A DNA stretch of 23,474 nucleotides from a virus, in the IMG/VR virus record IMGVR_UViG_3300020439_000082, positions 1 through 23,474 of that record; one strand, given 5' to 3'. Positions 6,609 through 17,786 of the stretch are shown in pieces. Positions within the stretch are counted from its first letter, which is position 1, and each line of letters opens with the position of its first letter. The position numbers were made by a program, and so were the translations under genes. The notes beneath the pieces are model-generated. The model made no database searches, was not told the DNA's origin, and was given only the letters and a program-made list of their open reading frames with translations.

Positions 6609-6712
6609 TACTTTCTCTTTTTCTTACTATTCATAATCTTTTTCTGTAAAAACTTTGGTAAAGTCTTTTGTTTTTTTGTTAAAGATTTTTTCTTCTTTGT
6701 ATGCTTAGGCAT
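6608..6712 (-). CDS. 34-aa Lys-rich mini-protein
   Basis: A 34-residue frame begins MPKHTKKKKSLTKKQK and ends IMNSKKKRK; about half the residues are Lys or Arg. The ribosome binding site AAGGAG stands eight bases before the ATG, the start overlaps the thioredoxin-like stop and the end overlaps the next start, both as TAATG. Those three signals make it a convincing gene despite its size. It is the first of four consecutive basic proteins. No family recognised. Confidence 0.75.
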   Translation of the reverse strand: MPKHTKKKKSLTKKQKTLPKFLQKKIMNSKKKRK

Positions 6713-7101
6713 TACTGTATCTCCTTCTTAATTTTATCAAATACTTCCTGCTCATCAAATCTCATACTAATACCAGGTTCATATCTCATTACTTCTTTAC
6801 CTTCTTTTAATATGATAATAGTAGGAACTACTTTAATATTCCATTCTTTTTGTATTACTGCACCAACAGCTTTATTGTTTAAATCTATTTCACCTACATA
6901 ACAAAGCTTAGATAGTTTTTCTACCTTAACTCTGTTTGCATGATTCCATGATGCGTTTACTTGCACAACTGCACACTTCTGTATGTTAAGTGCCTGTATA
7001 GATGCAAAGTTATCTAAATTAACCGACTGCCCAAAAGCAGAGGATGATAGCACAGCAAATCCAAAGAAGGATAAGCATAGTTTGTAAAATTGTTTCATCA
7101 T
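6712..7101 (-). CDS. Exported thioredoxin-fold protein lacking the CxxC site (129 aa)
   Basis: Residues 1-24 form a signal peptide (basic start, LCLSFFGFAVLSSSAFG, cleavage likely before Gln 25). The rest fits a thioredoxin fold: VVQVNASWNHANRVKVEKL, GEIDLNN, and VVPTIIILKEGKEVMRYEPG, where Pro 93 is the expected cis-proline. Where active thioredoxins have W-C-x-x-C this protein has W52-N-H-A-N56, so redox catalysis by that site is lost. Cys 43 and Cys 67 remain and could pair with each other. AGGAG lies eight bases upstream of the first of two adjacent ATGs. An exported protein in a virion operon may act in the periplasm during infection or release, or be a virion protein; I cannot decide. 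Confidence 0.75.
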   Translation of the reverse strand: MMKQFYKLCLSFFGFAVLSSSAFGQSVNLDNFASIQALNIQKCAVVQVNASWNHANRVKVEKLSKLCYVGEIDLNNKAVGAVIQKEWNIKVVPTIIILKEGKEVMRYEPGISMRFDEQEVFDKIKKEIQ

Positions 7102-8379: not shown

Positions 8380-8621
8380 TACTCAGCGTCTCTAATTGCT
8401 TTTAAATCAACTAATTCAGCATCTACTTCAACTACTTTTGCTTCAAGATTTGCTTTTCTTTCTTCTGCATCTTCAATAGCTTCGCCCACTTCTCTTGATT
8501 CCATATAATCTAACACTTCAACATCATTGCCAGATGCGTCTTTCATAGTTTTCATATATTTAATTTCAATCATTTTTACTTCTGACGATTCTACTGCTTT
8601 TTCTGAAATTACTTTAGCCAT
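8379..8621 (-). CDS. Acidic coiled-coil protein overlapping fibre end (80 aa)
   Basis: An 80-residue acidic protein. The N-terminal half (AKVISEKAVESSEVKMIEIK) looks like beta strands; the C-terminal half (AEERKANLEAKVVEVDAELV) is a predicted coiled coil. AAGGAG lies seven bases before the ATG, and the gene overlaps the last eight bases of the fibre gene. Small proteins coded right after a fibre often help fold or attach it, and this may be one, but there is no recognisable chaperone motif. Confidence 0.75.
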   Translation of the reverse strand: MAKVISEKAVESSEVKMIEIKYMKTMKDASGNDVEVLDYMESREVGEAIEDAEERKANLEAKVVEVDAELVDLKAIRDAE

Positions 8622-11600
8622 TTAACTTCTCCTTTAATTCGTTAATTTGTTCTTGTTGTTCTTTTATTGCTTCTACTAAATAAGGTATCATTTCCTCATA
8701 TCGTAAAATCTTATATTCTTTATCATCTTCTGCTCTTAGTGGTATTCTCTTTTCATCTACTAAGTGAGGTAAAATCTTTTCTACTTCCTGTGCTTTAAAT
8801 CCTGCACTTAATCTTTCTCCACCTTTTTTCCAATTAAATGTATGTCCTTCTAATTGTGTTACTACATCTAATCCATTTTCTATTTTTTCAAAGTTTTCTT
8901 TTAGTCTTATATCAGATGGTGTTGTAGAGAATGCAATTACATCTTTATCAAAGTGAACATCTCCATCGTGTCCAATTCTCATACTTTCAAAGAAATCTCC
9001 TGAACCATCAGTTCCCTGTGTGTAAAAAGATAATCCTATATAATCTGTATCTGTGCTTCCATCTGCTACAGAAGTTATCATAGCTCTTCTTCTACTTCCA
9101 CCAATCCAACAAATTGAACCATAATTAGTTCCACTTGCTCCCCCATTATGCCCCTCAAGAAGTATGCTATCTTGTCCTGACAATGTCATTGTAGCAGTTC
9201 CATCTCCATCTGAAGTAGTGCTTGTGTGAGCAGACAAATCTAACTTAGCGTTCGGAGAGCCAGTACCTATTCCAATTCTATCATTACCTGCATCGGTAAA
9301 TAATAAGTTAGCATCGCCATTACCCTCTACTCTAAAATCTATGTCATTACTACCCTCATTAATTACGATTGAATTATTTAAATCAATTTTAAGATGCTCT
9401 ACTCCATTGTGGTCATCAAATATTGTGCTTGTATTAGTCCTATTTCTAAAGAATAAATTACCAGTTTCATTTCTTAAATAAGTATTACTACCATCGTGTC
9501 TTATTGTAAAGTCAATACTACTACCAGCTCCAAGATAGTGATTATCTTCAACATAAGCATATCCGGAACTACTACTTTCATAAAATCTCATTGTATTTAC
9601 ACCACCAACAACCATATAAACACTATCAGCTGTGTTTTCGTGAATATAAGTATGAGTTCCTCCGTCAAAATAAATTTTTGAAGTTGCTGGTATTTTTAAA
9701 TCACCCTCAGATAGTTGTATTCCACCACCTTCTCTGTAAATTTGGAATATGTTATTATCGGATTGGTCTCTAAAATAAAGATTACCATTTGATAGTTTCA
9801 TATAATTATGTGAACCATCGTGTTCAATAGTAAAATCTGATGCAGCACCAAATCCTGCTTTAGCATTGTCTGCGTGTTGAGTGCTTTGAGCAAATATTGT
9901 TTTAGTAGCACTACCATCTAAATAAAAATAATCAGTAACACCACCACTACCATTATCAGATTGGAATTTTATATCTTTATCATCTGCATTGTTTTTAATA
10001 ATTATATCGCCAGTATTATTTTGCATATAAGCATTACTATTATCGTGTTGAAATCTTAAATCTAAATCCGAACCCAACATAAGTTGTGCAGAATCAACCA
10101 TTTTAATATCGTGATTAAATAATGCAGTTCCAGCATCACTTGCATCTATTTGTAATGCGTGTATATGACTACCACCATCATTTACAGATAAAAATATATC
10201 TTGGTCTTGTGCAAGATTTCTAAATTGTATATATCCAGTATAATTTCCAAATAATGTGTTAGAGCCATCGTGTCCAAGATAAATATCATTACCAGTTCCC
10301 ATTCGTAAATATTGTCCATCATTAGGTATTTTAATATCTCCCTGCGCACTTGCATCTATCCATAAAGCAGTTTTTGTAGAGCCACCATCATTGACTAAAA
10401 ATTTTAAATCTTGGTCTGATGTGTTTGCTCTTATGTAATTAGTAGTACCATCGTGATACATTTGTAAATCACTATCTGCTCCAAGAGTAAGTTTAACTCC
10501 ATCTGTTGGAACTCTAACCATATTGTTAGCACCATCTAATTTTAGAAAAGTTTGAACTCCACCACTACCATCGTCTGTTCTAAATATGATGCTCTTGTCA
10601 TCAATAGTGTTATCTATGTATAAATCTCCAGTTCCATATTGTTGTATAAAACTATGACTTCCATTGTGCTGGATTCTTAAATCGTCATTAGCCCCAATCA
10701 TTAATTTTTGACTATCGTTAGGCAATCTTACAGCTCCAACATCACTTGAATCGATTTGAATAGCAGTTTTCATCGTGCCACCATCATTAACCTTAATGTA
10801 TAAGTCTTGATTTGATGTATTGGAATTTATATAATTGTTTGAGCCATCGTGTAAGATTCTTAAATCATTACCAGCTCCTAAATAAAGATTTTGCCCATCA
10901 TTAGGAAGTTTAATTGAGCCATTATCACTTGCATCTATTTGTAATGCAGTAATTGTACTACCACCATCGTTTACATTAAAATGTAAATCTTGGTCTTGAG
11001 TTACTGTTCTTATATAGTTTACATTACCAGAGTGATAAAGTTGTAAATCATCTGCATTACCTATGCCAAGTCTTATATTATCAGGAAGTCTTACTTTATC
11101 TACAGATTCTTCTCTAAACTGCATTAATCTTGTGCCACCTACAAATACATCTAAAATATCATCAGATGATTCTTGTATATAAGTATGAGTTCCACCGTCA
11201 AAATAAAGTTTATTAGTAGCACTAATTTCAATATCACCATGCATATCTAAATCACCATCAGAATTGAAACTTGATAATGCTGAACTATTACTACCTAATT
11301 TTAATAAAGAATTTGGCTCATCTAATGTTATCCAGTTTCTAAATGTAGTTCCATCATAAGAATAAATAATTAAACTTTGGTTATCATCTCTATGTGATAT
11401 ACTATATGTTGTATGAGTTGAATCTTGTGAGGATTTTTTAAGTCTTATGCCACCTTCACTTCCGTCTGCTGATTGAATGTTTAAATAATCACTACCATTC
11501 CAAGTAAGAGTTGATTCTCCATTTAAAGCTGTTGAGCTACTAAATGTTGCTATTCTATTATTACTACCATTTGCTACTGCTGATACTGCACCACCACCAA

Positions 11601-14600
11601 TATCATCAACTGATAATTGAACTATAGCATCTGCACTTTGATTGTAAACTACAACCGTATCTTGACTGGTCAAAGGTTCTGAGTCTGTATTCAATACAGC
11701 CAACCCAGAAAAATCTACCTCTACATCGTTTGCATTTACTGCAATACCATCTCCTGCACCAACTGCTAAACTTCCTGAACTAGTTACTGTACCAGTTAAT
11801 CCATTTCCACCTGAGACGCTTGTTACTGTTCCAGCATTTGATGTAAAACTAGAATCATTATTAAAAGCAGATAGTTTAATTTCACTTGCTGCTTTTCTTG
11901 ATTCTGTAGTTCCGTCTTGTAAAATAAATTCTGTTGTTCCAGATATATCTCCTGTCATATCTGTTAGTTCACTAAAGTCTAATGCTAATGTTGCACTAAA
12001 TACACCACTACTTGCTGAGCCACCACCTGACAATCCAGTCCCTGCTGTTACGGATACAGAAGTAATATCTCCATTGTTGTTGCTAAAAGGTAAATCTTCT
12101 ACAAGTATTTTCTTAAGACCTACACCAGAATCGTGGAACATTATAGCATCATTTGCTGCGTCTAAACTACTAGCTAAACTTAATCCATTTATATCTACCT
12201 CTATGTCATCAGCATTTACTGTTATACCAGTTCCTGCTCCAACTGCTAAAGTTCTTGTAGCAGTAATATCTCCACCACCTGTTAATCCTGCACCTGAAGC
12301 TATATCTATAGAACTATGGTCTTTATGTTCATTAGCTACAAAGCCACTAAGATTGTCGTGTACAATCTCTGAATCGTTTGTAGATACTGCAGAAGAAGAT
12401 ACACTTATACCTGTACCTGCACCTACATTTACAGTAACTCCACCTGAGCTACCACTACCAGTCAAACCTGTACCTCCAGTTACAGATGTAATTGTACCTG
12501 CATTATTGGTAAAAGGTAAATCACTTACTGTACCTAGTCTAACAGCATCACTGTTAGAGTCGTCAAAAAATATAAAACCGTCTGCTCCTACAACTTCAGA
12601 TATAGCTGTTAATGCACTAGCAGCTATGTCTACTGCATTGGTAGTTACAGCTAAACTACTTGAACCTACTGCAAGTGTTGCTGTACCTGAACTTGTTATT
12701 GCAGAACCACCACCTGTTAATCCGTCACCACCAGTAACTGTAACAGATGTTACTGTACCAGCATTAGATGTAAAACCTGAATCATTATTGAAACCAGATA
12801 AATTAATATTACCTTTTGTAAGTTTTTTCTGAGCATTAGAACTATCTACTACTGCAAAGAAATCTCCGTCTCCGTCTGATGTAGATGTTGAAAGTTCAGA
12901 TAAATCTACATCTATAGTTGGCGTAGCTCCTTCTCCACTATTGTTTTGTAGGTCAATTAAATTACCTGCAGTCAATGTAGCTACATAATTACCAGTAGTA
13001 TGCGTTGTTAAGTCTACACTATTGTTAGCAATACTTACAGCAATACTTACATCTGCACTTCCGTCAAACGCAGTAGCAGTTGTACCAGTAACATCTCCTG
13101 TTAAGCTTATATCTCTTGAATTTGCTAATGTTGTTGCTGTACTAGCATTACCTTCTAAAGCTGCTATTAAAGTACCTGTAGCTACTGTTAAATTACCTGT
13201 AGAAGAAGCGTCTGCAGTTGTTGTACCTACTTTAAATTTATCTTCAGATTCGTCCCATATAATTGCTGCATTGTTGCCAGTGCTACCTCTTTCTATGATT
13301 AACCCTGAATCGTTAGCATTAGAACTTGCTCCACGATTTAATCCTATAATATTATCTGATACATCTAAATTGGTTTGATTGACTGTAGTTGTTGTACCAT
13401 TGACTGTTAAATCTCCAGTAACAGAAGCATTCCCAGTAACACTCAATGTTCCAATTATTGTTTCTGATGTTCCTGCATCTACTTTAAATACTACATTACC
13501 ACTACTATCTTTTGCCCTAAAATCTAAATCATTACCACCATTGTTGTGCATTGTATAGGCATCTAAAAAAACTAATTTACCTACACCATTTCTTACAATA
13601 TTAAAATTATGGTCTGTTGTAGTTCCGATAGTACCACTTGTGTCTTGTGACCTAATTTCAGTTTTAACAGTATTTGTGGTATCTGTTACAGTGAACTTTG
13701 GTGTATTAGCATCGCTAAAATCTATATCTCCAGTAAAAGTAGGACTTGCTAAAGTTTTGTTAGAAAGTGTTTGTGAGCCAGTGAGTGTAGCTACTGTTGA
13801 ATCTATAGAGAGTGTATCTCCAGTCAAATCAATACCAGTTCCACCTGCTAAATTTGTATCATCTCCTATATCAATAGTTCCAAGCGTGATAGCTTGTCCA
13901 CTTAATGAAAGATAATCGTGAGAACTTGTAACAAGTGTTACATTTGTGCTATTATCTGTACCAGCTGCGTCTACACCTATTGTAGTTCTTACTGCTGCAG
14001 CATCTGCATCATCTACAATACTTTTACCAAATGTTGATATAGTAGTATTAGCAGGTAAAGAAAATGTTTTTAAATCTGCATCTACTTCACTGTCCATAAG
14101 AGCACCAGCTGAAGTCACATTAGCAGTATCAGTTACATCCGCATTACTCTCTACTGAGTCAAGTTTTGTTTCTTGAGCATCAGTCATAAATCTTTTGTTA
14201 GATGCATCTGACATATTTGCTGTGCCAAATGTTGGGGAAGCTCCACTTATTACTGACTGGTCTAATGCTTTTACATCTGCAATACTTGTAAGTTCACTAT
14301 CCATTAATGCACCTGCACTAGTTACATTTGCTGTATCTGTGACATCTGCACTGGCTTCAATGCCATCTAATTTAGAGTGGTCAGCGTCTGTAAACACATT
14401 AGAGTCTGAAGCACTATCTACAAGCGTTCTTATTTCAGAAGCTGTTTGGTCTGCTGTGGCACTATCTTCAATAGCATTTAATTTATTTAAAAGGGTAGTT
14501 GTAAAGTTGTTGTCTGATTGTGTGGCTACTACAAAATCTATATTACCATCTGTATCGTCATAAGATACTGATATGCCTGTTTCAGTACCATCTAACATTC

Positions 14601-14952
14601 CACCAACAATATCTTCTACTTGCTCAGTAGTTAGAGTTGCTTCTATCTTTGCGTTAAGCTGTGTTTGTATATTGGAAGTAACACCATCTAAATAGTTTAT
14701 TTCTGCAGTAGTTGCAGTAACACCATCTAAGATATTTAACTCTGCTGCTGTAGAAGTAACAGCAGTTTCATTAATTTGTAAAGCTCCGTCATTTTTAATA
14801 TTAATAGAAGCACTACTGATTTGTAAAATACTAGCTGTACCTTCACCATCTTCTACATCTCTTAGAGTTGCATCTACCCCAGAGTTACTATTAGAAACCT
14901 GTAGTAAGTCTTTGTAAGACTCTGATATTTTTTTACCAGTTAGCGTAGCCAT
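8614..14952 (-). CDS. Giant tail fibre/spike with S74-type intramolecular chaperone (2112 aa)
   Basis: A 2112-residue fibre that probably binds the host surface. Residues 1-60 (MATLTGKKISESYKDLLQVS, then DVEDGEGTASILQISS) resemble virion-attachment ends of marine phage fibres. Residues 60-300 hold LDGVTAT-type and ADVTDTANVTSAGALMDSE repeats. 500-590 contain DNIIGLNRG and IIERGSTGNN. 720-1070 hold Gly-rich NAGTVTSVTVTGGDGLTGG repeats. About 1295-1830 hold eight copies of a unit with LGADSDLQMYHDGTTNYI. Residues about 2012-2112 match a peptidase S74 chaperone: TPSDIRLKENF, then GFKAQEVEKILP and a coiled-coil end. In that family self-cleavage takes place at a Ser-Asp pair, here Ser 2013-Asp 2014, after trimer folding. 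The upstream binding site is weak (GGTG). Confidence 0.9.
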   Translation of the reverse strand: MATLTGKKISESYKDLLQVSNSNSGVDATLRDVEDGEGTASILQISSASINIKNDGALQINETAVTSTAAELNILDGVTATTAEINYLDGVTSNIQTQLNAKIEATLTTEQVEDIVGGMLDGTETGISVSYDDTDGNIDFVVATQSDNNFTTTLLNKLNAIEDSATADQTASEIRTLVDSASDSNVFTDADHSKLDGIEASADVTDTANVTSAGALMDSELTSIADVKALDQSVISGASPTFGTANMSDASNKRFMTDAQETKLDSVESNADVTDTANVTSAGALMDSEVDADLKTFSLPANTTISTFGKSIVDDADAAAVRTTIGVDAAGTDNSTNVTLVTSSHDYLSLSGQAITLGTIDIGDDTNLAGGTGIDLTGDTLSIDSTVATLTGSQTLSNKTLASPTFTGDIDFSDANTPKFTVTDTTNTVKTEIRSQDTSGTIGTTTDHNFNIVRNGVGKLVFLDAYTMHNNGGNDLDFRAKDSSGNVVFKVDAGTSETIIGTLSVTGNASVTGDLTVNGTTTTVNQTNLDVSDNIIGLNRGASSNANDSGLIIERGSTGNNAAIIWDESEDKFKVGTTTADASSTGNLTVATGTLIAALEGNASTATTLANSRDISLTGDVTGTTATAFDGSADVSIAVSIANNSVDLTTHTTGNYVATLTAGNLIDLQNNSGEGATPTIDVDLSELSTSTSDGDGDFFAVVDSSNAQKKLTKGNINLSGFNNDSGFTSNAGTVTSVTVTGGDGLTGGGSAITSSGTATLAVGSSSLAVTTNAVDIAASALTAISEVVGADGFIFFDDSNSDAVRLGTVSDLPFTNNAGTITSVTGGTGLTGSGSSGGVTVNVGAGTGISVSSSAVSTNDSEIVHDNLSGFVANEHKDHSSIDIASGAGLTGGGDITATRTLAVGAGTGITVNADDIEVDINGLSLASSLDAANDAIMFHDSGVGLKKILVEDLPFSNNNGDITSVSVTAGTGLSGGGSASSGVFSATLALDFSELTDMTGDISGTTEFILQDGTTESRKAASEIKLSAFNNDSSFTSNAGTVTSVSGGNGLTGTVTSSGSLAVGAGDGIAVNANDVEVDFSGLAVLNTDSEPLTSQDTVVVYNQSADAIVQLSVDDIGGGAVSAVANGSNNRIATFSSSTALNGESTLTWNGSDYLNIQSADGSEGGIRLKKSSQDSTHTTYSISHRDDNQSLIIYSYDGTTFRNWITLDEPNSLLKLGSNSSALSSFNSDGDLDMHGDIEISATNKLYFDGGTHTYIQESSDDILDVFVGGTRLMQFREESVDKVRLPDNIRLGIGNADDLQLYHSGNVNYIRTVTQDQDLHFNVNDGGSTITALQIDASDNGSIKLPNDGQNLYLGAGNDLRILHDGSNNYINSNTSNQDLYIKVNDGGTMKTAIQIDSSDVGAVRLPNDSQKLMIGANDDLRIQHNGSHSFIQQYGTGDLYIDNTIDDKSIIFRTDDGSGGVQTFLKLDGANNMVRVPTDGVKLTLGADSDLQMYHDGTTNYIRANTSDQDLKFLVNDGGSTKTALWIDASAQGDIKIPNDGQYLRMGTGNDIYLGHDGSNTLFGNYTGYIQFRNLAQDQDIFLSVNDGGSHIHALQIDASDAGTALFNHDIKMVDSAQLMLGSDLDLRFQHDNSNAYMQNNTGDIIIKNNADDKDIKFQSDNGSGGVTDYFYLDGSATKTIFAQSTQHADNAKAGFGAASDFTIEHDGSHNYMKLSNGNLYFRDQSDNNIFQIYREGGGIQLSEGDLKIPATSKIYFDGGTHTYIHENTADSVYMVVGGVNTMRFYESSSSGYAYVEDNHYLGAGSSIDFTIRHDGSNTYLRNETGNLFFRNRTNTSTIFDDHNGVEHLKIDLNNSIVINEGSNDIDFRVEGNGDANLLFTDAGNDRIGIGTGSPNAKLDLSAHTSTTSDGDGTATMTLSGQDSILLEGHNGGASGTNYGSICWIGGSRRRAMITSVADGSTDTDYIGLSFYTQGTDGSGDFFESMRIGHDGDVHFDKDVIAFSTTPSDIRLKENFEKIENGLDVVTQLEGHTFNWKKGGERLSAGFKAQEVEKILPHLVDEKRIPLRAEDDKEYKILRYEEMIPYLVEAIKEQQEQINELKEKLNG
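9478..11070 (-). repeat. Eight HDG-type units in the fibre shaft
   Basis: Fibre residues about 1295-1825 repeat the motif (L)x(L/I)GxxxDLxxxHDGSxxYI eight times, starting near residues 1295, 1356, 1416, 1488, 1549, 1624, 1699 and 1806, so unit lengths vary from about 60 to 107. Between copies, VNDGGS and ALQIDAS recur, and KIYFDGGTHTYI flanks the array at about 1248 and 1759. Copies differ in every unit, which fits an old duplicated beta-shaft rather than recent expansion. Confidence 0.85.
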
Positions 14953-14956
14953 TTAA

Positions 14957-15409
14957 TTACACCAAGCTATAGGGAACTACACCACGAGTTCCACCTTGTT
15001 TATCTCTTCTTCTTGCCCCGAACCTTGTTACCATTTCCTTGTATTCAGCCATAGCTATTTGTGCAGACTGTAATTTAATAGTAGCAAGTTCTGCATTGTT
15101 AGTTCTTGCTGCAGCATCCATAAGTGCTTTTGCTTTTACATAAGCTATAAGTGCTGGTTGCAAAGAGTTGTCTATATCTATAGTTCCTGTAATAGATGTA
15201 AGTTTATCTGGCTCAGCGTAATAAGATATTAAAATACCATTAGTAATTACATCTCCAGTAGAGCCTACTTGAGCTGCTTTATATTTACCTTCTGATGTTT
15301 CTGTTGTTCCGCCATCACCGCTTGTTGAAGCTATGGCTATCTTATCTCCTTCTATCCACCAAACAAAAGTATCTGAAGGGTCTTTGTATGTACTGTCTAC
15401 TGCTGCCAT
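14957..15409 (-). CDS. Virion protein, connector-like, unknown function (150 aa)
   Basis: A 150-residue protein. Residues 1-75 are beta-rich (DTFVWWIEGDKIAIASTS). Residues 76-130 are helical (LQPALIAYVKAKALMDAAAR, IAMAEYKEMVTRF), and the end is basic (GARRRDKQGGTRGVVPYSLV). The ATG follows the previous stop after two bases, and the fibre gene starts two bases after this gene's stop codon. Location between adaptor-like genes and fibre suggests a head-tail joining or fibre-anchoring protein. I have seen similar ends in marine phage genomes but know no assigned function. Confidence 0.8.
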   Translation of the reverse strand: MAAVDSTYKDPSDTFVWWIEGDKIAIASTSGDGGTTETSEGKYKAAQVGSTGDVITNGILISYYAEPDKLTSITGTIDIDNSLQPALIAYVKAKALMDAAARTNNAELATIKLQSAQIAMAEYKEMVTRFGARRRDKQGGTRGVVPYSLV

Positions 15410-15411
15410 TT

Positions 15412-15717
15412 TTATTCCGTATCTGTTATCTTAGTTTCTTGATTTAAAAGTCTTGGAACCATAATATATTCTGAATCACTGTTTAATATGCTACATCTAA
15501 ATACTTTATTTACAGTAACATCTCTATCATCATCTAATCCATACCACATTTGATTATGCACTAAATTTGTTTTTGCGTATTCAGTTTTTAAATTATACTG
15601 TCCTAAATCTACCAAAGCTTCATTAATTAAATTTAATACATAGTTTTCTGATACTTCAGGCACTGCCTGTTGTACTCTACTAAATATTTCTTTCCCACTA
15701 AATTCTATTGCTGCCAT
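15412..15717 (-). CDS. Virion protein of unknown function (101 aa)
   Basis: A 101-residue protein with an N-terminal helical part (KEIFSRVQQAVPEVSENYVL, NLINEALVDLGQYN) and a C-terminal beta-like part (DDRDVTVNKVFRCSILNSDS). The ATG overlaps the stop of the 11-residue-repeat gene as TAATG. The helical domain that positions an LxxLINEALxDLG stretch is reminiscent of phage adaptor proteins near the portal, but I cannot assign it. There are no membrane segments. Confidence 0.8.
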   Translation of the reverse strand: MAAIEFSGKEIFSRVQQAVPEVSENYVLNLINEALVDLGQYNLKTEYAKTNLVHNQMWYGLDDDRDVTVNKVFRCSILNSDSEYIMVPRLLNQETKITDTE

Positions 15718-15986
15718 TATAAGTCCTCATATTTTGCGTTTACATCCTGCCAAAAAGAATTACCATCATTCCAAAATTTAAATTGTTCTAAGGTTTCACT
15801 CCAGCTAGTAGATGGTGCTATTACTTGCTCACTCCAAGTTGATGTTGGAGTTGTTAAAGTTTCTGTCCAGGTAGAGCTTGGGCTAATAGCTCGTTCACTC
15901 CAAGAAGTAGAAACAACATCTAAGTCCTCTGTCCAAGAACTAGATGGCTCTATTGTTTGTTTGCTCCAAGTAGTATTTATTGCCAC
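15717..15986 (-). CDS. 11-residue Trp-repeat protein (89 aa, GTG start)
   Basis: A short protein built from six tandem 11-residue units, each starting with Ser/Thr-Trp-Ser/Thr-(Glu/Lys). Trp occurs at residues 7, 18, 29, 40, 51 and 62 with no exception. Units alternate between TWSExxIxPSS and SWTExLxxxTS forms, giving a 22-residue higher repeat. A non-repeat tail has FWNDGNSFWQDVNAKYEDL. The GTG start shares a base with the previous stop (TAGTG), the same junction as in the lysozyme gene. Strict period and alternation point to a small beta-solenoid or stacked beta structure with Trp in the core. Function unknown; a virion decoration or fibre-binding role fits its neighbours. Confidence 0.85.
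   Translation of the reverse strand: MAINTTWSKQTIEPSSSWTEDLDVVSTSWSERAISPSSTWTETLTTPTSTWSEQVIAPSTSWSETLEQFKFWNDGNSFWQDVNAKYEDL
15774..15971 (-). repeat. Six 33-bp coding units (11-residue period)
   Basis: The six units of the Trp-repeat protein are exactly 33 bases each, with no insertion or deletion between them. At the DNA level the units are diverged, so the periodicity is kept at the protein level. Alternate units are more alike than adjacent ones, giving a 66-base super-period. Confidence 0.8.
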
Positions 15987-16636
15987 TATCTACTATCCTT
16001 TCTAAGCCTTGATTGTTCAATTTCTTCTATACCTAAAAGTTGTAGTGCTTCTTTATATTGAGCATCTATCAATGTATATTGATTTGTGTATACAGAAGAC
16101 AGCTCTGAGTCTTCATCTACATTCTTATCTTTTATAATTCTTTCAAGTGCTTGTCTAGCTGCGTACAAAACTACTGCATACTCTGCTTCATCTGGAAAAT
16201 TATCTATGTTTGTAGCGCTGTGTAAAACTGTAATGTCTGTATTAATAGACACCACTCTGCTATCATTAGATGCTACGCTTTCTGGAAAAGTGTTAATAAC
16301 TTGATTATGAATTATGTATGCTGGGTCACTTGTTGAAGCAAATTCCATATATGCTGAATCATGAACTCTACCCATTTGACTAGGTTGTAGTTCTCTACAT
16401 GGCATATATCTATTGCTATTATTAGCATCTTTTCTTAATACAGAAATAATTCTTTTACCCTCAGCATCTTGAGAGTTTGTAAAGTTTGTATTACTTGCAA
16501 CTCTTGAAAGCTTTTGTATAGGCATAGCATTTAATATAAATCTTGCACCAGCTGTTAGCCAATCAGACAATGCATCATTTTCTGTAGTTCCAAAACCTGT
16601 TAGTGCATCTACTTGGTCTTTAAATGATTCAGCCAT
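15986..16636 (-). CDS. Putative head-tail adaptor/virion protein (216 aa)
   Basis: A 216-residue mixed protein beginning MAESFKDQVDALTGFGTTEN, then LSDWLTAGARFILNAMPIQK. A middle beta region (GRVHDSAYMEFASTSDPAYI) is followed by helices (EAEYAVVLYAARQALERIIK, DAQYKEALQLLGIEEIEQ). Length is close to T7 gp11 (about 196 residues), and helical ends around a beta core fit the adaptor class, but the match is by shape only. The ATG overlaps the stop of the 45-residue gene as TAATG. If this is the adaptor, the nozzle-like gene is unusually far away, about 11 kb downstream. Confidence 0.75.
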   Translation of the reverse strand: MAESFKDQVDALTGFGTTENDALSDWLTAGARFILNAMPIQKLSRVASNTNFTNSQDAEGKRIISVLRKDANNSNRYMPCRELQPSQMGRVHDSAYMEFASTSDPAYIIHNQVINTFPESVASNDSRVVSINTDITVLHSATNIDNFPDEAEYAVVLYAARQALERIIKDKNVDEDSELSSVYTNQYTLIDAQYKEALQLLGIEEIEQSRLRKDSR

Positions 16637-16773
16637 TATCCTTGTCCTCTACTTTTCTTTTTGTAGTGTTTACTAGAAAGCTTGTTTCCAAACTTTGTAT
16701 TTCTACCTTGTCCTTGTCTTGTTTTCTTTTTTCCATTTGTATGTCTTGGTTGTTGTGAAAATCCTTTTCTCAT
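16636..16773 (-). CDS. 45-aa basic mini-protein
   Basis: A 45-residue frame, MRKGFSQQPRHTNGKKKTRQ and then GQGRNTKFGNKLSSKHYKKK before the end. It is rich in Lys, Arg, Gly and Gln with almost no hydrophobic residues, so it is probably unfolded unless bound to nucleic acid or a partner. It is joined to both neighbours by TAATG overlaps, which makes it a convincing gene. I recall similar short KKTRQG...GRNTK proteins in marine phages, without known function. Confidence 0.75.
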   Translation of the reverse strand: MRKGFSQQPRHTNGKKKTRQGQGRNTKFGNKLSSKHYKKKSRGQG

Positions 16774-17786
16774 TACCCTCTTCTACCCAATCTTGCTTCA
16801 GCTATTAGCCTGTCTAAAGCCTGTTGATATTCACTTTTTAAAGGATAGTTTCCTTGTAAATTTCTTTCAGGATTTCTTTGTCTAAAATCTAAATCTTTCA
16901 TAAAGTCCATTAAACTGTTTTGGAATGACCTGTCTTCAGTTGAATCAGTTCTAAAAAAGTTTATAATTCTATCTTTAAAAGACATCTTAGACATTTTTTC
17001 ATCAAACTTTTCTTTTCTTGCTTGTCGTTTTTCTGCCATTTCTTTTCTAGTACCTTTTGGTAACATAATACCTGTTCTCTCTAAAATGTCTCTTTCTCCA
17101 GGATTAGAAATAAACTCTATATTATTTGCTGGTTGGAAACCTAAAACAGAATCAATCGGACTTATAGTACCTGGTTCATCTATATCAGACATACTACTAC
17201 CTAAACTTTCTAAGGGTGGAAGACCTAAGCTTATTCTATCTTTGTTTATTTTCTCCAAAATCGTATCACTATTCATAGGTTCAGGATTTAAAGGCGTACT
17301 ATCTAACTCACTAGGCATACCAGGAAGCATTGGGTCTCCACCAACTACTTTGCTTTTATTTTTTTCTATCATGTTTTGAACCATTGCTAATCCATTGAAT
17401 GCGTCTAAAGCTTCTTGCTCTAAATCGTCAAAATTTATTTCATTCACTCTTTCTATTGTACTGTTCATCCTAGATATATTGCTAAAATACTCTTTTGTCA
17501 TTTCTCTTCTTTGTGACATAGAGTCTGGTGTAACCTGTTCATATAGGTCTATCATATAGTTTTGCATATCTTTTTTTCTAGCTACATCTAGTAAGTCTTC
17601 CACATAAGATGGTTGAAATTTTTCTACAACTGTTTGTGGTGCATAAGTGTTTAACCATTGCTCAACAGCTGCAAGTTCATCTTCTTTTGGAATTATATCT
17701 GCAAAAAGACTAAGTTCAGGAAATGAAGCCTCCATATTAAAGTAGTCTTCTCTATATGTTTCAGGTCTGTTGTTATCGCCATTCAT
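16773..17786 (-). CDS. Virion-module protein of unknown function (337 aa)
   Basis: A 337-residue protein. Residues 1-145 are mostly helical and acidic (EDELAAVEQWLNTYAPQTVV, SYVEDLLDVARKKDMQNYMI). The centre is Pro-rich and likely flexible (GGDPMLPGMPSELDSTPLNP, then a run of PPLES and DEPGTIS). The C-terminal 100 residues are strongly basic and helical (KGTRKEMAEKRQARKEKFDE). No membrane segments or cysteines are seen. It is joined to both neighbours by TAATG. This three-part plan resembles the 505-residue protein near the left edge. Location between the capsid and adaptor genes suggests an internal head protein, but I recognise no family. Confidence 0.8.
   Translation of the reverse strand: MNGDNNRPETYREDYFNMEASFPELSLFADIIPKEDELAAVEQWLNTYAPQTVVEKFQPSYVEDLLDVARKKDMQNYMIDLYEQVTPDSMSQRREMTKEYFSNISRMNSTIERVNEINFDDLEQEALDAFNGLAMVQNMIEKNKSKVVGGDPMLPGMPSELDSTPLNPEPMNSDTILEKINKDRISLGLPPLESLGSSMSDIDEPGTISPIDSVLGFQPANNIEFISNPGERDILERTGIMLPKGTRKEMAEKRQARKEKFDEKMSKMSFKDRIINFFRTDSTEDRSFQNSLMDFMKDLDFRQRNPERNLQGNYPLKSEYQQALDRLIAEARLGRRG

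Follow-up and report, generated by a model that had tools for sequence, protein, structure and literature searches.

What does a short protein with a regular tryptophan repeat do between the virion genes of an uncultured phage? This question is raised by the 23,474-base linear virus record IMGVR_UViG_3300020439_000082 (IMG/VR), analysed here at full length and referred to as the window. An earlier note had described an 89-aa phage protein with Trp at residues 7, 18, 29, 40, 51 and 62, a period of 11, starting with GTG at a coupled junction, and these points held on re-examination. The recounted Trp positions were 7, 18, 29, 40, 51, 62, 72 and 79, and a run of six Trp at any fixed period occurred in 4 of 100,000 shuffles of the protein. 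The GTG start overlaps the upstream 216-aa gene by one base (TAGTG), and the gene end overlaps the downstream 101-aa gene in the same manner (TAATG). The minus strand encodes a P22-like portal (Pfam E = 1.5e-36), an SU10 major capsid protein (4.6e-32) and small proteins, and the order continues with the 216-aa protein, the Trp-repeat protein, the 101-aa and 150-aa proteins and a 2112-aa fibre. The phage context given in the earlier note thus holds as well. The features discussed below are as follows.

15986..16636, minus strand: virion-type 216-aa protein, upstream of and coupled to the Trp gene; homologues of 206–945 aa in the same slot
15717..15986, minus strand: Trp-repeat protein, 89 aa (open reading frame with GTG start), proposed to be a free-standing fibre dock; 47 of 84 distinct loci have a homologue in this slot
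15804..15986, minus strand: N-terminal arm, residues 1–61, with Trp 7, 18, 29, 40 and 51; unit consensus T/S-x-W-S/T-E/K; without predicted secondary structure
15720..15803, minus strand: C-terminal module, residues 62–89 (W62..W72..W79..Y86), proposed fibre-docking triad; W72 and W79 vary hardly at all among 38 homologues, and the same tail (W-x6/7-W-x6/7-[WYF]) lies beside the same fibre elsewhere
15412..15717, minus strand: putative 101-aa N-terminal half of a split SU10-type adaptor; weak match to phrog_2125 residues 13–78 (E = 0.0035); its C-terminal tail is short (..KITDTE) where the Trp protein is present
14957..15409, minus strand: putative 150-aa C-terminal half of the split SU10-type adaptor; weak match to phrog_2125 residues 142–196; Pfam SU10_adaptor at E = 0.0008, below cut-off
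8614..14952, minus strand: long tail fibre, 2112 aa, with a C-terminal long tail fibre distal match; N-terminus MATLTGKKISESYKDLLQVSNSNSG, the proposed triad partner

The Trp-repeat gene and its surroundings

The units of the 89-aa protein alternate between type A (W-S-x-x-x-I-x-P) and type B (W-T-E-x-L), as the earlier note had stated, and are followed by a C-terminal module whose aromatic residues W62-W72-W79-Y86 are spaced by 10, 7 and 7. At the DNA level the repeat units share just 13–22 of 33 positions, which speaks against a fresh tandem duplication as the source of the array. A 111-aa open frame antisense to the gene (15670–16005, plus strand), also open in the relatives L001 and L004, is probably a by-product of the repeat codons.

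The 101-aa and 150-aa proteins are read as a split adaptor because of weak matches to phrog_2125, the first to its N-terminal part and the second to its C-terminal part; the 150-aa protein also has a weak match to Pfam SU10_adaptor. The two genes (14957–15717) are separated by a two-base gap and lie in different frames, a layout shared by L001 and L004, and in L226 the adaptor is a single fused gene of 224 aa. The fibre contains many TAAELNILDGVT-type repeats, and its C-terminus matches a long tail fibre distal subunit (phrog_33119).

Several observations concern the remaining neighbours. Homologues of the 216-aa protein (L029, L124 and L125) reach 945 aa through large repetitive and coiled-coil-like inserts, followed by a conserved C-terminal end. 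Many relatives, whether or not they carry the Trp gene, have a different protein of 160–204 aa, from one of several families, inserted in the Trp-gene slot ahead of the adaptor (for example L126:2822–3322, L078:2667–3164, L055:2540–3154 and L172:3004–3492). Where the window encodes a 337-aa protein of unknown function (16773–17786), close relatives carry a 246–305-aa protein (L011:1223–2140; L019:1241–2083) that by eye resembles a phage lysozyme-type peptidoglycan hydrolase. A 129-aa protein (6712–7101) has a signal-like N-terminus and, by eye, a thioredoxin-like look, and a similar gene starts after the adaptor in L073.

Homologues, unit number and predicted structure

Scans of IMG/VR showed the Trp-repeat protein to be real and to be conserved among uncultured marine phages: its relatives, of 56–99 aa, occupy the same gene slot in a large SU10-like group. 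Sequence searches elsewhere gave little. By tblastn in isolated phages, no match was found for the Trp protein or its relative L155, nor for the 216-aa gene, the adaptor genes, the fibre N-terminus or a 91-aa triad protein; the portal had one 20% match, and one further hit at E = 9 was attributable to chance. GTDB genomes yielded no adaptor relative, and a PDB sequence search returned nothing for the Trp-protein family. In PHROGs the best match of the 89-aa protein was at E = 0.12, and the 38 homologues gave scattered weak matches alone (best 0.0077). The Pfam family Mucin-like (PF16058) scored 16.1 bits against the 89-aa protein, under its curated cut-off of 28.7.

Homologues with other copy numbers, which the earlier note had anticipated, were found, with three, four or six Trp units counting the C-terminal one. 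The Trp spacing was mostly 11 or 12 and further 13, 16 and 19, never below 11. Nor did the alternation of units hold as a strict rule, since the 56-aa homologues have the order A-A-C-terminal unit and L129 has A-A-A-B-A-B. The unit consensus has T/S at Trp-2 in 108 of 112 cases, mostly S/T at +1 and then E/K; in L074–L076 and L080, Leu, Phe or Tyr stands in place of an inner Trp. Single-unit in-frame indels separate close relatives, and therefore the unit number is free to change. A multiple-of-three rule was ruled out by pairs with three and four units (L028/L045, L015/L013, L074/L080 and L099/L100). The observed counts 3, 4 and 6 all divide 12, which we do not claim as a rule: five is absent, yet the sample is small and changes by one unit are common. 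Conservation is highest beyond the repeats, in W72-W79-Y86, a feature left unmentioned in the earlier note. The residues flanking the repeat Trp and the triad Trp differ, and the two sets may bind different partners.

Structure prediction, which the earlier note had proposed, was run on monomers with AlphaFold2, both models being based on shallow alignments. The 89-aa protein was predicted at a mean pLDDT of 56 (low confidence), with repeat blocks mostly at 44–55 and a helix at residues 63–87. For the 56-aa relative the mean was 75, with an extended arm at about 70 and a helix at residues 27–54 at 86–88 over most of its length. Thus the repeats came out as an unstructured or extended arm, and structure was predicted in the C-terminal helix. 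No strand was found in the repeats of either model, one of which is of low confidence, and the suggestion of a minimal solenoid or stacked beta structure gained no support from them.

It is unlikely that the 11-residue units build a small beta-solenoid or beta stack, perhaps only on assembly, that serves as a stalk or decoration. The family does share with beta-solenoid repeat proteins short, regular repeats anchored by a hydrophobic residue; the units are beta-prone, with T/S around Trp, and length varies by insertions alone and never falls below 11 residues, as with solenoid coils. Unlike those proteins, the family has no predicted strands in the monomers, its spacing is uneven and reaches 16 and 19, members may have as few as three units, and the inner Trp is lost in some.

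Linkage to the adaptor and the fibre

Among the 84 distinct SU10-like loci, 47 carried the Trp gene, 34 lacked it and three could not be judged, their contigs starting too near. The 101-aa adaptor half was present in 47/47 loci with the Trp gene, and all others had adaptor halves of 111–115 aa, so that the form of the tail tracked the presence of the gene in 81/81 judgeable loci. In the fibre-less relatives the adaptor half ends in NTxWTE[VI], matching the consensus of the repeat unit. The fibre lay downstream in 44/44 Trp-gene loci whose contig reached far enough and in 0/34 loci without the gene; its N-terminus was absent anywhere in 13 contigs of 25–72 kb lacking the Trp gene. A tree of the adaptor halves placed a single change on its branches. 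The perfect link within the SU10-like group is thus one evolutionary event, and we discarded it as independent evidence.

Other phages with the same fibre N-terminus provided further comparisons. The linked fibres start with MATLTG..YKDLLQVSN, with YKDLLQV conserved at residues 13–19, and the best 80 of 353 fibre-bearing contigs were taken. The triad rule was defined as a C-terminal W-x6/7-W-x6/7-[WYF] in the gene ending just before the fibre. In the pooled loci the triad was present in 66 of 83 genes directly upstream and in 4 of 2103 other ORFs, locus counts that overstate the independent cases because loci of one group are related (the two largest groups comprise 43 and 20). The rule was fixed on loci L225–L276 and then applied to contigs new to a second scan, where it found the triad in 15/23 non-redundant loci versus 0 of about 1000 other ORFs; this held-out set is partly independent, many of its loci belonging to groups already seen.

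Several families of unrelated proteins share the triad beside this fibre N-terminus. Counted by groups, the fairer measure, five BLAST-separate neighbour groups carried it, of 43, 46, 91–97, 150–547 and 370–412 aa. Six groups lacked the strict C-terminal triad, the lineages without such a neighbour including L241, L295 and the L292 and L275 types; among the six, L272 has a looser triad in a 43-aa neighbour, L275 an internal cluster and L261 a triad elsewhere. In L275 the protein that adjoins the fibre upstream, of 509 aa, matches a phage structural protein and contains the internal GPTWDALPYSAWEDWDTDW. The gene order in L226 is SU10_adaptor (Pfam E = 1.5e-9), triad protein and fibre, and in L270 two adaptor-half-like proteins, a 46-aa triad protein and the fibre. 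The triad proteins upstream of the fibre in L301 and L319, of 479 and 547 aa, have weak CBM_5_12 matches below the curated cut-off.

A proposed fibre dock

A solved precedent for such a triad is found in phage SU10, where Trp839, Trp847 and Trp857 in the dock loop of the nozzle protein gp17 are arranged as a quasi-threefold star in which each contacts one chain of the trimeric fibre gp16 (PMC9509320). The dock stretch taken from the SU10 genome, GPIWSDFQEITWDDPSIKELVW, was likened to TSWSETLEQFKFWNDGNSFW, and the TSWSETLEQFKFWNDGNSFWQD of the 89-aa protein has by eye a similar pattern, the motif being short. Both contain three Trp or aromatic residues at short spacing (8 and 10 in SU10; 10, 7 and 7 here) in W-S-D/E and W-D/N-D contexts, and both belong to the tail of an SU10-like phage. 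In SU10, however, the dock is a loop within the nozzle protein, whereas here it would be the C-terminus of a separate 89-aa protein with a Trp-repeat arm N-terminal to the triad, and the contacts solved in SU10 are inferred here from genes. The candidate nozzle of this phage, a 715-aa protein, has only four scattered Trp. On the fibre side, SU10 gp16 has an aromatic/aliphatic clamp, Tyr23-Ile24-Tyr25, close to its N-terminus; in the fibres linked to the Trp gene the conserved YKDLLQV lies at residues 13–19. The adaptor long tail fibre dock domain of SU10 and T7 likewise concerns the junction of an adaptor and a fibre (PMC9509320), encoded here by adjacent genes; there the adaptor itself grips the fibre (PMC9509320), whereas the present phages have a separate protein, and their adaptor half is without the NTxWTEV tail of the sister clade.

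The best-supported reading, which we consider moderately probable, is that the 89-aa protein is a small free-standing fibre-dock protein of a short-tailed SU10-like phage, whose C-terminal module docks the fibre. W72, W79 and Y86, with W62 ahead, would hold the N-termini of one trimeric 2112-aa fibre, in the manner of the SU10 loop, in which each of three Trp contacts one fibre chain. The predicted C-terminal helix conflicts with the loop precedent and counts against docking: Trp every seven residues would share one face of a helix, a geometry different from that of the SU10 loop. A helix is less likely in some other triad proteins, whose triad region contains Pro or is T/N-rich.

Two other roles were weighed against docking. 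The protein might assist the assembly of fibre or adaptor, as a scaffold or in a chaperone-like way, and stay outside the virion; it is small, coupled to structural genes and strictly linked to the fibre, and PHROGs give no convincing match, but in other lineages the triad terminates large proteins or is internal to a structural-type one, and the one solved comparable Trp triad found is a virion part (PMC9509320), making this role quite improbable. Binding of the Trp units to host-surface glycans, as in some carbohydrate-binding repeats, would suit a Trp-rich repeat in the tail region and the weak CBM_5_12 matches in two of the larger triad proteins. We judge it very improbable, as the 89-aa protein had no carbohydrate-binding family match in PHROG and Pfam searches and docking explains the strict linkage to one fibre N-terminus better.

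Under the docking reading, the N-terminal arm of T/S-x-W-S/T-E units would be an extended, expandable tether, most likely on the adaptor ring. That the arm binds the adaptor is suggested by the unit consensus, which equals the NTxWTEV adaptor tail motif of the sister clade; this tail is missing in exactly the phages with the Trp gene. Alternatively, the arm may provide extra fibre docking or act as a spacer. A more speculative and rather doubtful extension is that the Trp units replace, in one chain, the tail borne by each sister-clade adaptor subunit, so that a single polypeptide, donating strands or peptides in tandem, would thread several subunits of the 12-fold ring and clamp the trimeric fibre with its C-terminus. 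In that case an expandable repeat protein would have taken over fibre attachment from the adaptor.

Phage assembly in general poses the question of how tails of 12- or 6-fold symmetry hold a trimeric fibre. Should the rule hold, a Trp triad ending the gene just before a YKDLLQVSN fibre would predict fibre docks in many uncultured phages, and in this family the dock would be a separate peptide that can be swapped, which would help in understanding how fibres are exchanged.
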